A DNA stretch of 64,000 nucleotides from contig JAKLFY010000015.1 in NCBI GenBank assembly GCA_022710935.1, forward strand, positions 1 to 64,000. Direction: 5' to 3'. Of this stretch, positions 7,795-13,541 are shown piece after piece (the first letter of the stretch is position 1; each line of letters begins with the position of its first letter). The notes under the pieces were generated by a model. That model was not told where the DNA came from. It saw only the letters and a list, made by a program, of their open reading frames with translations, and searched no databases. This DNA is from Verrucomicrobiota bacterium. GTDB taxonomy: Bacteria; Verrucomicrobiota; Verrucomicrobiia; Limisphaerales; J093. The position numbers were made by a program, and so were the translations under genes.

Positions 7795-9408
7795 TCATCC
7801 GAGGCTCGTGCAATGATCGCCTTGATCGTTCATTGCTGACTGAGGGGTCCGCGGCATACGCGACAAAGACCCCCGACCCCGTCCGTCTACCCCACATGTT
7901 GCCGACGGCAGCCGCACAACAAACTCGCTCCCATCCCCTGCCCGGCTCGAGACCGCGATGCTGCCCCCATGCGCCGCCACGATCGCCCGCGAAATGGCCA
8001 GTCCCAATCCCGTCCCTCCGGACGCGTGCGTCCGCGCTCTGTCGCCTCGGTAAAACCGGTCGAAGATGTGTTCAAGATCGGCCTCGGCAACGCCGATGCC
8101 CGTGTCCGCCACGGACAGGAATGCCGCGCCGCTTTCGGCGCCGCTGCGAACCCGGATGGCGCCATGTTGGCGGTTGAACCGGATGGCATTGCTCAGAAGG
8201 TTCATGGCCACCTGGCCGATGCTCTCGGGATCGGCGTTGGCCTCCGCGCGCGTCAGGCTGCATTCGATGGCGATGCCACGTTCGCTGGCCAGAGGCCGTA
8301 CGCGTTCGACCGCCGTTCGAGCCGTTTCCGCAAGGTCGCAGAGCTGACGTTCGAAAACCTCCTGCCCGGCGTCGAGCCGCGCCAGTTGCAAAAGTTGCTC
8401 GGTCAGGCGGCGCATGCGTTGGGCGGTCTCGAGACACGTATCGAGCGTCGCCCGGTATTCGCCCGCTTCGCGCGGGCGGGCCAGCGTCGCCTGAGCCTCG
8501 GCGATGAGAACGGCAATCGGGGTGCGCAGCTCGTGCGAGGCATCGGCAACGAATTGCTGCTGCGTCGCGAACGCTGCCTCGAGCCGGGCGAACGTCGAGT
8601 TCAGCACCGTCGCCAGGCGCCCCAGTTCGCTGTCCGTCTCGGCGATGTCGATGCGCTCGGCCAGGTTGCCGGCCGAGATCCGGCTGGCCGCGGCACCGAT
8701 CGCCTCGACCGGACGGAGCGCGCGGCCGGCCAGCAGCCACCCGCCCCAGAGCCCCACCATCAACACTGCTCCTCCCGCCAGAACCAACAACCCAGCCAGC
8801 CGCCCAATCGCATCGAGATCGGCCCGAATCGATCGGCCCGCAAGGACACACTCGCCCAACTCCGTGAAATGATACGCCTCGCGCCTCACGCCGCGCGTGC
8901 GCGTGCGGATCCGGACGTCGCCATCCGCTCGATCGGGCAAAGCCAGCTCCGGAGGCGCATTGGTCGACCGCGTCAGCAAGCCGCCGCTTCGCGACCAGAT
9001 CGCATAGTAGAAATCGCCCGGTTCGACCGAACTGAACAGGCTCGAGGACTTGGCGGACAACTGCACATCGCGCGGCTCGAACGGATTCTCCGGCGGCAGA
9101 CGCGGCCCTCGATCCTCCTGCAGCCGCCGCGGTGGCGGCCCGAAGCCCTGTCCGAATTCCATTCGCCGCCCCGGGTCGAATCCCGGCTCGGGCTCGATCG
9201 GAGGCGGCCCGGGAGGCGGGCGCAATGGGAATGAACTCCTCACATCCTCGCTGAGCATCGCCACACGGCGCCCGAGGTCCTCGTCGATCTCCCCGAACCG
9301 CTGGGTTCGATGCAGCTTGTACGCAGTGGCGCCGAACCCGGTCAGAATGCACACCAGGAGGAACGCCTGCCACAACTGCATCCGCCAACGTATGGACTTC
9401 ACCAGCAT
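7795..9408 (-). CDS. Two-component sensor histidine kinase
   Basis: A 537-residue membrane sensor kinase. An N-terminal membrane segment (LWQAFLLVCILTGFGATAY) is followed by a proline/arginine-rich sensor region, a second membrane segment (LAGLLVLAGGAVLMVGLWGG) and a HAMP linker. HisKA has the phospho-acceptor His about 292 in DASHELRTPIAV. The HATPase has NLLSNAIRFN (N box), DTGIGV (G1) and GGTGLGLAIS (G2). The last about 35 residues go beyond the usual end and show no domain. It lies 9 bp after the response regulator stop; GAGG four bases before the ATG is a good ribosome site. It should phosphorylate the adjacent regulator. The signal is unknown. Confidence 0.95.
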   Translation of the reverse strand: MLVKSIRWRMQLWQAFLLVCILTGFGATAYKLHRTQRFGEIDEDLGRRVAMLSEDVRSSFPLRPPPGPPPIEPEPGFDPGRRMEFGQGFGPPPRRLQEDRGPRLPPENPFEPRDVQLSAKSSSLFSSVEPGDFYYAIWSRSGGLLTRSTNAPPELALPDRADGDVRIRTRTRGVRREAYHFTELGECVLAGRSIRADLDAIGRLAGLLVLAGGAVLMVGLWGGWLLAGRALRPVEAIGAAASRISAGNLAERIDIAETDSELGRLATVLNSTFARLEAAFATQQQFVADASHELRTPIAVLIAEAQATLARPREAGEYRATLDTCLETAQRMRRLTEQLLQLARLDAGQEVFERQLCDLAETARTAVERVRPLASERGIAIECSLTRAEANADPESIGQVAMNLLSNAIRFNRQHGAIRVRSGAESGAAFLSVADTGIGVAEADLEHIFDRFYRGDRARTHASGGTGLGLAISRAIVAAHGGSIAVSSRAGDGSEFVVRLPSATCGVDGRGRGSLSRMPRTPQSAMNDQGDHCTSLG

Positions 9409-9417
9409 GATGCCTCG

Positions 9418-10071
9418 TCAGGTTTCGATGCAGTAGCCGTGGCCGCGGCGCGTCGCGATCAAGTCCGCCCCGAGCTTCTTGCGAATGCCGAACACATGAA
9501 CGTCGACCAGGTTGGACAGGGTGTCATCGCTCTCGTCCATCAGATGCTCATAGAGCGCCGTGCGGGTCACCACCTCGCCGCGGTGATAGGCCAGATACTC
9601 GAGGATGGCATACTCGCGGGCCGTCAGCCACACCGGTTGTCCCGCCCGCGTCACGGCGCGCGATTTGACATCGATGACGATGTCGCGGATCTCGAGCCGC
9701 GGCCACGGTTTGCCTGCCCCCCGGCGGATCAGCGCCCGCACCCGCGCGAGCAATTCGCTCAGGTCAAACGGCTTCACAAGGTAATCGTCCGCCCCCGTGT
9801 CCAGCCCGCGCACCCGGTCGCGAGCAGCATCCCGCGCCGTCAGCATCAGCACCGGCGTCGGCTTGCGCCGCCGCAACCTCTCCAAGACCTGCCACCCGTC
9901 CATCCCCGGCAGCATCACATCGAGCACAATCGCGTCGTAATCGTAGCTCTCCGCCTTGAACAGACCGTCATCGCCCGCAGCCGCCGTATCCACCGCGTAG
10001 CCTTCCTCGCGCAGCGCCTTCGCCAGGCTGCGCAGCAGATGAGGCTCGTCTTCGACCACAAGGATTCGCAT
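9418..10071 (-). CDS. OmpR/PhoB-family response regulator
   Basis: A 217-residue regulator. The receiver domain starts MRILVVEDEPHLL, with phospho-acceptor Asp51 in IVLDVMLPGMDG, Thr in LMLTARD and Lys in DDYLVKPFDL. The C-terminal winged helix (about residues 125-217) contains LTAREYAILEYLAYHRGEVVT and VDVHVFGIRKKLGADLI, typical of OmpR/PhoB DNA-binding domains. It is first in the operon with the kinase, transcribed away from the CotH operon. The intervening region carries direct repeats at 11-bp spacing, the normal site geometry for this family, so autoregulation and control of the CotH operon are plausible inferences. Confidence 0.95.
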   Translation of the reverse strand: MRILVVEDEPHLLRSLAKALREEGYAVDTAAAGDDGLFKAESYDYDAIVLDVMLPGMDGWQVLERLRRRKPTPVLMLTARDAARDRVRGLDTGADDYLVKPFDLSELLARVRALIRRGAGKPWPRLEIRDIVIDVKSRAVTRAGQPVWLTAREYAILEYLAYHRGEVVTRTALYEHLMDESDDTLSNLVDVHVFGIRKKLGADLIATRRGHGYCIET

Positions 10072-10157
10072 GCTCGATCGGCGGATTCCTCGGAACGCAG
10101 GAAAAGCACTCCCACGCGTCCGTTCCGTTCCATCGAGGGGTATTCTGCCAGAGACCA

Positions 10158-10198
10158 GATTAATTTGCGATTAAGAATCCTCTTAATCGAGGCTTAAT
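10158..10198. promoter_or_regulatory. Candidate regulator operator: paired 11-bp direct repeats
   Basis: GATTAA occurs at 10158 and 10169, and CTTAAT at 10182 and 10193. Each pair is spaced exactly 11 bp and the two pairs face each other. OmpR/PhoB-class regulators bind as head-to-tail dimers to half-sites 10-11 bp apart, so this fits a site for the adjacent regulator. It lies between its start (10071) and the CotH start (10228). The AT-rich core contrasts with the surrounding GC-rich DNA. Confidence 0.55.
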
Positions 10199-10227
10199 GC
10201 TCTCTCTGGTAAAGTCGCGGCGCATTT

Positions 10228-12129
10228 GTGAAACGGCACGTGTTCCATATCGAACTGTTCCTGGTGGCCGCGACCTCTGTTCTTGGCTTGTTCCTTGTGC
10301 TTCGGACGCCAGGCAGTTCCTCTCCGACCAACCGTGTCCCGCCCGGCGCACGAGCCGACATGCCGCCGTTCGCTGGCGGCCCCGGCGGCCCGGAATTCGG
10401 ACCGTTCGAATTCGGCGGTCCAGGCGAACCTGGTTTTGGCGGGCCCGGTCCGAGCGGCCCGGATGGCCCGGGCCCGGGCGAGTTTCCTCCGGGCGGATTC
10501 ATGGGTGGTGGGCCGATGCCAGGCGGACCGATGCCAGGCGGGCCTCCTGGCGGCCCCGGACGCTCGGCCACCCCAGGAATTGGCGTGGTCAAGGAATTCG
10601 ACCTGAATGCTGATGGATGGCTCAACCTCGACGAGCGCAAGGCTGCCCGAGAGTCTCTCTCCCAACAACGTGGCAACCGGCGCTTCGGCGGTCCAGGAGG
10701 TCGTGGCGGTCGTCGCGGCGGCTTCGGCGGCTCCAACACAGACCAGGCGTCCGCCCCGACCGCCCTTCGGCTCGCACCATCCGATGTGCAGTCGTTTCCG
10801 GATGCGCCCCTCTACGATTTGAACGTGTTTCGGACGCTCTTTCTCGAGTTCGAGGCCAGCGATTGGGAGAAGGAACTCGAGGAATTTCACGACGTCGCCA
10901 TCGATGTTCCGGCAAAGCTCACGGTCGACGGACGCTCCTATCCCGAGGTGGGCGTCCGTTTTCGTGGAATGTCTTCTTATTTCATGGTCGGGTCCGGTCA
11001 GAAACGGTCGTTGAACCTCGACATGGATTATGTCCACTCGCAACAACGCCTTTACGGCTGCCGAACGCTGAACCTGCTCAATTCGCACGAGGACCCCACT
11101 TTCCTGCGCACGGTCCTGTTCTGCCACATCGCCCGGCACTACCTCCCCTGCGCCCAGGCCAACCTCGTCCGCCTCGTCATTAACGGCGAGGACTGGGGCG
11201 TCTACGTCAATTACCAGCAGTTCAATCAGGAATTCGTTCAGGAGTGGTTCCACACCTCGAAGGGCGCGCGTTGGAACGTGCCGGGCGGGCCTGGGGGAAA
11301 CGCCAACCTCTCGTATTTGGGCGATGACGTTTCGCCCTACCAACGCATGTACGAGATCAAATCCAGAAACGACCCCAAGTCATGGGTTGGTCTGATCCTT
11401 CTCTGCCAGACTCTGGATCAGTCCACCCCGGATCGGCTGGCCACCGCCCTCGAACCATTGCTCGATATCGATGGCGCGCTCAAGTTCCTCGCGCTCGACA
11501 ACGTGTTCGCCAACAACGACGGCTACTGGATCCGCAGCAGTGACTACAATCTCTACCAGGATCCCGAAGGCCAATTCCATATCATCCCGTATGACGTCAA
11601 CGAGACATTCAGCACGGGCGGCGGACCCGGCGGACCCGGCGGACCCGGCGGTTTCCGAGGCCCTGGAGGCCCGGGCGGCATGGGCGGGATGCGCCGGTCA
11701 GGCGGTCGTGGCGGATTTGGGCCCGGCATGGGATTTGGGGGGGGATTCGGGCCGGGCGGACCGCAGGGTGGCGGTGTGGAGCTCGACCCACTGGTCATTG
11801 CCTCCAACTCGAACAAGACACTGGCCTATCGGCTGCTCGCTGTTCCGGAACTGCGCCGGCGCTATCTGGGACACGTCCGCGCCATAGCTGAACAATGGCT
11901 CGATTGGAACACGCTCGGTCCGGTGGCAACGCAATGCCACTCGATGATTGCCGAGGCGGTGGCGGCTGACACCCGGAAGCTCGATTCGACTGAGGCTTTC
12001 CAAAGTGGGCTCGAAGGCGCCGGGACGGCTCAAACGGAATCTCGAGGGGAGCGTTCAGGCGGCAGCCTGAAAGCCTTCGTGGAAGGACGGCGAGCCTACC
12101 TCCTCAACCAACCTCAACCGTCAAACTGA
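10228..12129 (+). CDS. CotH-family secreted protein kinase with EF-hand
   Basis: A 633-residue protein with a GTG start. An N-terminal signal or anchor (HIELFLVAATSVLGLFLVL) is followed by a Gly/Pro-rich low-complexity region (about residues 45-120) and an EF-hand-like loop, DLNADGWLNLDE. The CotH kinase-fold domain (about residues 200-480) has RFRGMSSYFM, the basic patch QKRSLNLDMD, LLNSHEDPTFLRT and the late acidic block DNVFANNDGYW with PYDVNETF. A second GGPGGPGG low-complexity stretch interrupts the domain near residues 465-520. CotH proteins are atypical kinases that phosphorylate surface proteins. DUF4956 and VTC genes follow at 23 and 6 bp, forming one operon. A partner in polyphosphate-linked surface modification is an inference. 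Confidence 0.85.
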   Translation: MKRHVFHIELFLVAATSVLGLFLVLRTPGSSSPTNRVPPGARADMPPFAGGPGGPEFGPFEFGGPGEPGFGGPGPSGPDGPGPGEFPPGGFMGGGPMPGGPMPGGPPGGPGRSATPGIGVVKEFDLNADGWLNLDERKAARESLSQQRGNRRFGGPGGRGGRRGGFGGSNTDQASAPTALRLAPSDVQSFPDAPLYDLNVFRTLFLEFEASDWEKELEEFHDVAIDVPAKLTVDGRSYPEVGVRFRGMSSYFMVGSGQKRSLNLDMDYVHSQQRLYGCRTLNLLNSHEDPTFLRTVLFCHIARHYLPCAQANLVRLVINGEDWGVYVNYQQFNQEFVQEWFHTSKGARWNVPGGPGGNANLSYLGDDVSPYQRMYEIKSRNDPKSWVGLILLCQTLDQSTPDRLATALEPLLDIDGALKFLALDNVFANNDGYWIRSSDYNLYQDPEGQFHIIPYDVNETFSTGGGPGGPGGPGGFRGPGGPGGMGGMRRSGGRGGFGPGMGFGGGFGPGGPQGGGVELDPLVIASNSNKTLAYRLLAVPELRRRYLGHVRAIAEQWLDWNTLGPVATQCHSMIAEAVAADTRKLDSTEAFQSGLEGAGTAQTESRGERSGGSLKAFVEGRRAYLLNQPQPSN

Positions 12130-12152: not shown

Positions 12153-12839
12153 ATGCAACTGCCTGCCTCGATTCGCGAACTGTTCCTGAACCCGACCGCC
12201 ACTGCCTCCCTTCCCGGATTCGCCCTGAGCCTCTGTCTTGCAGCCGTCCTCGGGATGTTCCTCGGACAAGCCTACGTCCATTTCGGCCAATCCCTCTCGA
12301 ACCGCCGGCTTTTTGCCCGGAACTTCGTTCTGCTGGCGGTCACGACCACCCTGATCATCAGCATTGTCAAGTCGTCGCTCGCGCTCTCCTTGGGCCTGGT
12401 CGGGGCGCTCTCGATTGTCCGGTTTCGCGCCGCGATCAAAGAACCCGAAGAACTCGCCTTTCTCTTCCTGGCCATTAGCATCGGCTTGGGATTGGGTGCC
12501 GGCCAGGCCCTGGTCACCATCGTCGCCCTCGTCATCATCCTGGGTCTGATCGCCCTCCGCAGCCTGGTCCGCCGCAAGCCCGATCAGCCCAATTCCTTCC
12601 TCACCGTCACCAGCCCGTCTCCGGCAAAGCTCGGCCCCCAACAAATCCTTGGCGCCCTGGCCAAGGCCGGCGCCCAGGCGCAACTCAAGCGGTTCGATGA
12701 AACCCCCGACCGCATCGAGGCGGCGTTCGTCGTCGATTTCCAGGACGCCAGCCGGCTCGAGTCCTTCGCCGCCCAGGTCCGCAACCTCAATCCCCAGGTG
12801 CAAGTCAGTTGCCTGGACGACCGCGGGTTGGCCGCTTGA
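12153..12839 (+). CDS. DUF4956 membrane protein
   Basis: A 228-residue protein with about four transmembrane helices in the first 140 residues (PGFALSLCLAAVLGMFLG, FVLLAVTTTLIISIV, LALSLGLVGALSIVRFRAAI, ALVTIVALVIILGLIAL). The block GALSIVRFRAAIKEPEELAFLF, here cited by its ends only, is the DUF4956 hallmark: SIVRFR and KEPEELA. A soluble alpha/beta domain follows. No biochemical activity is established for the family; it is repeatedly found beside VTC-domain and CotH genes. The position between those two here supports a membrane component of the same process. Confidence 0.85.
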   Translation: MQLPASIRELFLNPTATASLPGFALSLCLAAVLGMFLGQAYVHFGQSLSNRRLFARNFVLLAVTTTLIISIVKSSLALSLGLVGALSIVRFRAAIKEPEELAFLFLAISIGLGLGAGQALVTIVALVIILGLIALRSLVRRKPDQPNSFLTVTSPSPAKLGPQQILGALAKAGAQAQLKRFDETPDRIEAAFVVDFQDASRLESFAAQVRNLNPQVQVSCLDDRGLAA

Positions 12840-12845
12840 ACCGGG

Positions 12846-13541
12846 ATGAACGCTCCCCTGCCCCGGCCCCGTTACGAGCGCAAATTCGTTGCCGCGGGAT
12901 TGTCCCTCGCCGAGACGCTGGCCTTGGTACGGCAGCATCCCGCCCTGTTCCGAGTCGCCTACCCCGCGCGCCAGGTGAACAATCTCTACCTCGACTCGCC
13001 TGCCATGCGGGACTACCTCGATCACGTCCACGGCGCCGCTCACCGGCTCAAGACCCGGATCCGCTGGTACGGGCGCGAACACGGCCGGATTCCCCTTCCC
13101 GTTCTCGAACGCAAACTCAAGTTCGGACATGTCGGCGGCAAAGAATCCCACCCATTGCCGGAGATCACGCTCGATGGCACCGTGCCGATGGAGACACTCG
13201 ATGCCGCCATAGGTGGCGCTGCGCTCCCGCCGCTCCTGCGCGCCTCATTGCGCCATCTTCAACCTGTGCTGATCAACCGCTACGAACGCCACTATTTCTT
13301 GAGCGCCGATGGTCGCTTCCGCCTGACCGTCGACACGAACCTTCTCTTCCTCGGAGTCCGGCCGTCTGCGGGATGCGTCGCAGCCCTGCCTCTCGGAGAT
13401 CGGTCGCCTGTCATCGAACTGAAGTACGGCCCCGACCACGCCGCAGCCGCCGCCACAATCGGCAACGCCATCCCCTTCCGCATGGTCCGGTTCTCGAAGT
13501 ACGTCCTGGGCATCGAACGCTGGCTGGCCCTCCAGAATTAG
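12846..13541 (+). CDS. VTC-domain polyphosphate polymerase-like protein
   Basis: A 231-residue VTC-domain protein. The opening PRYERKFVA is the conserved basic strand of the triphosphate-tunnel fold; RQVNNLYLDSP, KTRIRWYG and LERKLKFG supply the alternating Arg/Lys residues expected to line the tunnel, and VIELKYGP near residue 195 gives a conserved Glu-Lys strand. The yeast homologue Vtc4 makes polyphosphate from ATP. It begins 6 bp after the DUF4956 stop, so the two are almost certainly cotranslated. Polymerase activity is inferred from family membership. Palindromic repeats start right at its stop codon. Confidence 0.85.
   Translation: MNAPLPRPRYERKFVAAGLSLAETLALVRQHPALFRVAYPARQVNNLYLDSPAMRDYLDHVHGAAHRLKTRIRWYGREHGRIPLPVLERKLKFGHVGGKESHPLPEITLDGTVPMETLDAAIGGAALPPLLRASLRHLQPVLINRYERHYFLSADGRFRLTVDTNLLFLGVRPSAGCVAALPLGDRSPVIELKYGPDHAAAAATIGNAIPFRMVRFSKYVLGIERWLALQN

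Follow-up and report, generated by a model that had tools for sequence, protein, structure and literature searches.

The intergenic region between a response regulator gene and a CotH gene in a Verrucomicrobiota contig is very probably a divergent promoter pair through which a PmrA-like two-component system controls both itself and CotH: the regulator would activate its own operon and the CotH operon. This reading comes from sequence analysis of the window (a 64,000-nucleotide stretch, contig JAKLFY010000015.1, positions 1 to 64,000) and of related genomes. The features are given below; the + positions of the −10 elements take the final base of the box as their reference.

7795..9408, minus strand: sensor histidine kinase, HAMP-HisKA-HATPase_c (Pfam domains)
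9418..10071, minus strand: 217-aa response regulator of the OmpR/PhoB family (Response_reg and Trans_reg_C of Pfam, both above gathering)
10142..10150, minus strand: putative extended −10 for the regulator gene, TGG-CAGAAT (past the box, TG is at +9/+10, A at +13 and T at +17)
10159..10175, minus strand: regulator-facing box, CTTAAT-CGCAA-ATTAAT, tandem half-sites with an 11-bp period (read directly)
10182..10198, plus strand: CotH-facing box, CTTAAT-CGAGG-CTTAAT (read directly)
10207..10215, plus strand: putative extended −10 for CotH, TGG-TAAAGT (spaced as on the regulator side)
10228..12129, plus strand: CotH kinase-family protein with an N-terminal hydrophobic stretch (Pfam CotH, 126.7 bits)
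12153..12839, plus strand: DUF4956 protein (Pfam), 23 nt past CotH
12846..13541, plus strand: VTC-domain (polyphosphate polymerase-like) protein (Pfam), 6 nt past DUF4956

The regulator scored 108.1 and 73.7 bits with the two Pfam models, and thus has the receiver and winged-helix Trans_reg_C domains of the OmpR/PhoB family. A kinase match was found after the regulator in 30/30 orthologous loci, and the two genes probably share one operon. The DUF4956 and VTC genes are probably co-transcribed with CotH. Since the regulator ORF starts at 10071 on the minus strand and CotH at 10228 on the plus strand, the intergenic region is 156 bp long, as the first-pass annotation had it. The sensor region of the kinase (7795-9408) is proline-rich, and an alignment of 26 orthologues showed the conserved motifs WSRxG...STNxP and REAYHFTxxGxCVLxGRSI. 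In the CotH protein there are long repeats rich in Gly and Pro, as well as an EF-hand-like stretch, DLNADGWLNLDE (10380-10730, 11629-11760), the latter spotted by eye and with no Pfam report. Several box genes in other genomes do score as EF-hand proteins.

Re-reading of the letters placed GATTAA at 10158-10163 and 10169-10174 and CTTAAT at 10182-10187 and 10193-10198, exactly as first reported, including the 11-bp spacing. The half-sites had been described as facing pairs; instead, the boxes are divergent and stand back to back, 6 bp apart, each aimed at its own gene. The spacing of the TTAA core across the four half-sites is 11, 12, and 11 bp, and the direct half-sites with an 11-bp period at 10158-10198 correspond to an operator of the OmpR/PhoB family. 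The published PmrA box, as given in the available part of PMC3973317, consists of CTTAAG or CTTAAT, a 5-bp spacer, and NTTAAT, and both window boxes have this form.

The window is 65% GC and contains only 22 TTAA in total, four of which fall within these 41 bp. No second cluster of four TTAA inside 40 bp was found in the 64-kb window, and 20,000 random placements of 22 TTAA never produced one. CTTAAT-N5-CTTAAT was found once, against an expectation of 0.00 from dinucleotide shuffles of the window. In the 7.5-Mb genome from which the window comes, CTTAAT-N6-TTAAT had two matches, both in the 10158-10198 region (reversed control: 1). A search of the same genome for the box plus −10 with up to two mismatches also returned two matches, both in this intergenic region and one per direction (reversed control: 4).

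The regulator-facing box is conserved at orthologous regulators. It was found with no more than one mismatch within 200 bp upstream of 27 of the 30 orthologues with at least 74% identity, while in the other three no box was found within one mismatch. By identity class, the box was present in 17/17 orthologues at 78% or above, 10/13 at 74-78%, 9/32 at 70-74%, 4/27 at 66-70%, and 1/11 below that; these counts omit one of the 101 orthologues, L217, with 137 bp upstream. In the congener G012 the regulator-facing box is identical to that of the window. Paralogous regulators with 46-52% identity had the box upstream in 0/13 cases. Within 200 bp upstream of the 101 orthologues, 64 pairs of TTAA were at spacing 11, and no other spacing between 4 and 40 had more than seven.

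The box also co-occurs with the regulator at the genome level. In 14 genomes of the family, exact CTTAAT-N5-YTTAAT had 12 matches, all in the seven genomes that have a regulator of at least 80% identity (reversed control: 2), and none in the seven genomes without one. Across the 245 genomes of the order that were searched, exact CTTAAT-N5-CTTAAT was found 80 times in 50 genomes. Of these 80 boxes, 53 fell in the 30 genomes whose regulator reaches at least 74% identity (control: 0), 14 in the 57 that have none but more distant regulators (control: 9), and 13 in the 158 regulator-negative genomes (control: 28). More distant orthologues often carry CTTCAT-N5-CTTAAG or CTTCAT-N5-CTTCAT at a similar place. 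A wider scan covered at least 80 regulator loci, mostly distant, and in the 260 bp upstream of 15 of them no CTTAAT-N5-CTTAAT was found; one of these 15, L005 (70%, Verrucomicrobiales), has the variant CTTCAT-N5-CTTAAG. Distant regulators, mostly at 62-74% identity (L225, L201, L231, and others), were seen with CTTMAT-N5-CTTAAGG and with S-N replacing F-S/G in the recognition helix.

Each box is followed by a putative extended −10 element at a fixed distance. T9, G10, A13, and T17 are common to both window promoters, and the gap between box and −10 hexamer is 11 nt in both. The box pattern was found in 88 of the 101 orthologue upstream regions, and the 87 with full 50-nt context were used for comparison. 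In regulator promoters whose second half-site ends in T, A13 and T17 were each present in 39/41; in those ending in G, they were present in 43/46 and 44/46, respectively. CotH-facing boxes had A13 and T17 together in 15/16 cases, against a background of 4.2%. Sequence evidence assigns each box to a promoter of its own. The recurrence of the box at both orthologous regulators and CotH genes, with a −10 at this spacing, supports the earlier assignment of the head-to-tail 11-bp half-sites to a PhoB/OmpR regulator.

In both promoters the box occupies about −40 to −24, and the window sequence has no separate −35 element, with no −35-like hexamer at the correct distance. The region from −40 to −24 is that bound by PhoB- and PmrA-type activators, and tandem-box activators take the place of the −35 there. 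On sequence, the replacement of the −35 by the box and the fixed distance to the −10 are those of a class II activator promoter. Activation is the likelier sense, because the box lies at about −40 to −24 and a separate −35 is missing.

Among 58 box promoters, the start codon lies 7 nt past the last −10 base in 11 and 8 nt in two. The loci with such a short distance are L090, L116, L118, L136, L170, L193, L198, L207, L277, L292, and L300. The start codon is here at the expected transcription start, and therefore these mRNAs are probably leaderless. CotH of the window has its GTG start 13 nt past the −10 (10216-10228), which would leave a leader of about 6 nt.

The 41-bp layout as a whole was much less conserved than the single boxes. 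It had been proposed to recur upstream of orthologous regulator/CotH pairs; it did so in one congener, G012, and not in other genera (2/14 family genomes, including the window's own). As a family-wide unit the layout was rejected, as a search with up to three mismatches in the 14 family genomes returned only the own genome and one congener. Counted on the alignment, the 156-bp gap differs between the window and G012 at 23 positions; two of these are inside the 41 bp, and the spacer of the CotH box holds both. Of the 30 close orthologues, 18 had an opposite second box within 400 bp, always beyond the first and pointing away from the regulator. The gap between the two boxes, computed by hand, is 6 bp in the two congeners and 22-211 bp in the other 16 orthologues. 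This indicates that outside the genus the plan of two boxes is kept without the tight symmetry.

We then have, for the 30 genomes with a close regulator, 60 box plus −10 sites in 28 genomes (reversed control: 0), with no such site found in the other two. Eighteen sites face the regulator, and 18 have a CotH match starting within 1 kb downstream. Another nine have CotH within 5 kb downstream on the same strand, and in six of these nine VTC and DUF4956 matches precede CotH. Eleven sites precede other recurring families (dioxygenase-like, PSCyt1 cytochrome, and secretin-N), whose labels came from queries taken at box loci and are therefore not independent evidence. Four sites had no recognisable target. 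The target labels cover 59/60 sites, the sixtieth being the window's own, so that the sites before CotH are 17 + 1. One CotH query was from the window and four were from box loci; the Pfam CotH domain was confirmed in three of these four, and the fourth (L292) rests on similarity to the CotH of the window.

The box was also found at CotH genes unlinked to the regulator, for example at G003:C14, G013:C125, and G001:C24. The CotH homologues of the regulator-negative family genomes G004, G006, G007, and G008 had no box within two mismatches. The CotH copies L153 and L154 (G013:C52 and G001:C11) had no box either; they belong to carrier genomes, which argues against a simple rule. At L116 (G003:C14:9515-10744), the CotH match has two in-frame TGA, yet the box and the −10 are intact. 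At L278:3248-3286 (G161:C325), a tandem CTTAATCCTGG array with 11-bp steps and more than two half-sites lies upstream of a PSCyt1-like cytochrome gene.

The idea that one regulator serves two directions is therefore largely right, with boxes recurring at both the regulator and CotH; its exact 41-bp layout is confined to the genus. The mechanism we propose is that the phosphorylated regulator (9418-10071) would bind as two dimers, each head-to-tail on one CTTAAT-N5-NTTAAT box, in place of the −35 and beside the extended −10 of the respective promoter. The leftward dimer would activate the regulator/kinase operon, giving positive feedback, and the rightward dimer would activate the CotH-DUF4956-VTC operon, with its predicted secreted CotH kinase. 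Sequence comparison shows the conservation of the boxes, their orientation, their placement with respect to the −10, and their co-occurrence with the regulator. From it we infer binding by the neighbouring regulator, activation over repression, the transcription start sites, and co-transcription.

A broader reading, to which we give an even chance, is that of an order-wide Verrucomicrobiota regulon. In it, the PmrA-type box with its extended −10 at a fixed place would turn on operons for surface CotH kinases, VTC, and DUF4956 proteins, as well as some other families (dioxygenase-like, PSCyt1 cytochrome, secretin-N, and EF-hand proteins), many of them through leaderless mRNAs. In the genus of the window this regulon would have shrunk to the present divergent promoter, with four half-sites on one DNA face coupling feedback and output.

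Of the other explanations, a chance cluster of AT-rich half-sites is negligible in probability. AT content is commonly higher in intergenic DNA than in genes, which would favour such a cluster; however, about zero were expected, the cluster is unique in the genome, and the box is kept in orthologues. It is also very improbable that another OmpR-family regulator of the genome binds the boxes. OmpR-family paralogues at 46-52% identity are present in these genomes, but the box tracks the neighbouring regulator (53 versus a control of 0 in close carriers, 13 versus 28 in non-carriers) and stands at the neighbour's own promoter and at none of 13 paralogue promoters.

Repression of one or both promoters by the regulator from these same boxes is unlikely, if less so. 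PmrA-family members can repress some of their targets, as PmrA does with pmrD in S. enterica (available part of PMC2565834). The box adjoins the −10 as well and could block the polymerase. Against this, the box sits at about −40 to −24, a fixed 11 nt from the −10, where activators replace the −35; no −35-like hexamer is found at the correct distance, and a repressor needs no fixed distance. Somewhat less improbable, and still doubtful, is that the 41-bp layout acts as one unit, either with two dimers binding cooperatively to the 11-12-11 half-sites and coupling the promoters, or as a hairpin. In favour of this, all four TTAA cores are almost in phase on the helix, and the two congeners have the same half-sites in a gap that otherwise drifts. 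But the gap of 22-211 bp in the 16 further close orthologues with both boxes means that coupling by close packing is not required, and if real, it would be a feature at the genus level. Two separate activator sites, each serving its own promoter, are the reading we prefer.

Comparison with PmrA was extended to the regulator protein. Against the PmrA (BasR) equivalog NF007928, its second-best NCBIfam model, the regulator scored 212.1 bits, below the cut-off of 330; its best model was TIGR01387 (CzcR/CopR), with 227.9 bits, below the curated cut-off of 279.2. The best NCBIfam model of the kinase was TIGR01386 (CzcS/CopS), with 262.9 bits, below the cut-off of 292.55. According to the available part of PMC4660055, the KpPmrA-DNA structure has N188, N196, and R210 contacting bases and T187, V192, and H195 making hydrophobic contacts. 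The aligned residues of the regulator are N187, G195, and R209, so that two of the three base contacts are kept, and S186, V191, and F194. The changes of N196 to G195 and of H195 to F194 indicate that specificity is not copied residue for residue. Judged by sequence, the window boxes would work like a PmrA/PhoB operator, and the protein is no PmrA equivalog. PmrA (BasR) systems themselves are marked by DNA binding that depends on phosphorylation and by a response to Fe3+/polymyxin.

Residue 194 was compared with the end of the second half-site: F goes with T and S with G (36/2 versus 0/42; Fisher 1e-20 on raw counts). A tree-based count, with a tree that took in 100 of the 101 orthologues, left three independent pairs, two changing the same way, none the opposite way, and one without difference, and significance was lost. 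With only these three pairs, the covariation of helix and half-site was dropped as proof of binding and is suggestive only.

CotH kinases partnered by VTC and DUF4956 occur widely, and outside spores little is understood of them. Their link to one kinase/regulator pair with a recognisable promoter would make a regulon readable from sequence across a bacterial order, and the kinase would offer a route to seeking the signal. It would also mean that a PmrA-type operator serves a different output in a distant phylum. What may be new is that CotH operons of a whole order are tied to a PmrA-like system, together with the evidence for one box per promoter. Boxes of this type are familiar from PmrA/PhoB regulators, but it seems that none has yet been described as serving CotH genes of this order; in the open-licence literature we found no description of a CotH regulon with a PmrA-type box, and nothing on a BasR-polymerase complex.

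Pho box promoters, which are served by PhoB, have 11-bp head-to-tail repeats that stand in for the −35, with a constant distance to the −10. The present promoters resemble them in these repeats and in this fixed distance and differ in the half-site, which is of the CTGTCAT type for PhoB and CTTAAT here. The CzcR/CopR-CzcS/CopS heavy-metal family supplied the best NCBIfam models for both proteins, both below cut-off; unlike in those systems, the neighbours here are CotH, DUF4956, and VTC. The grouping of CotH, a polyphosphate polymerase, and DUF4956 is known as an accessory cassette beside the Pel clusters of streptococci and clostridia (available part of PMC7112168). It has the same three gene families as found here, but the available part of that source describes no OmpR-type regulator or box for it, whereas here the operon lies opposite a two-component system.

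The closest likeness is to the PmrA (BasR) box of enterobacteria, for example at pbgP of K. pneumoniae (available parts of PMC3973317 and PMC4660055), which shares the first half-site CTTAAT or CTTAAG, the 5-bp spacer, and the second half-site NTTAAT. As with PmrA in the available part of PMC4660055, the regulator is of the OmpR/PhoB family, has N and R at two base-contacting positions, and is predicted to bind as a head-to-tail dimer. Unlike PmrA, it falls below the equivalog cut-off and differs at two contact residues; its putative target is CotH-DUF4956-VTC, whereas those of PmrA are lipid A modification genes, and here two boxes stand back to back.
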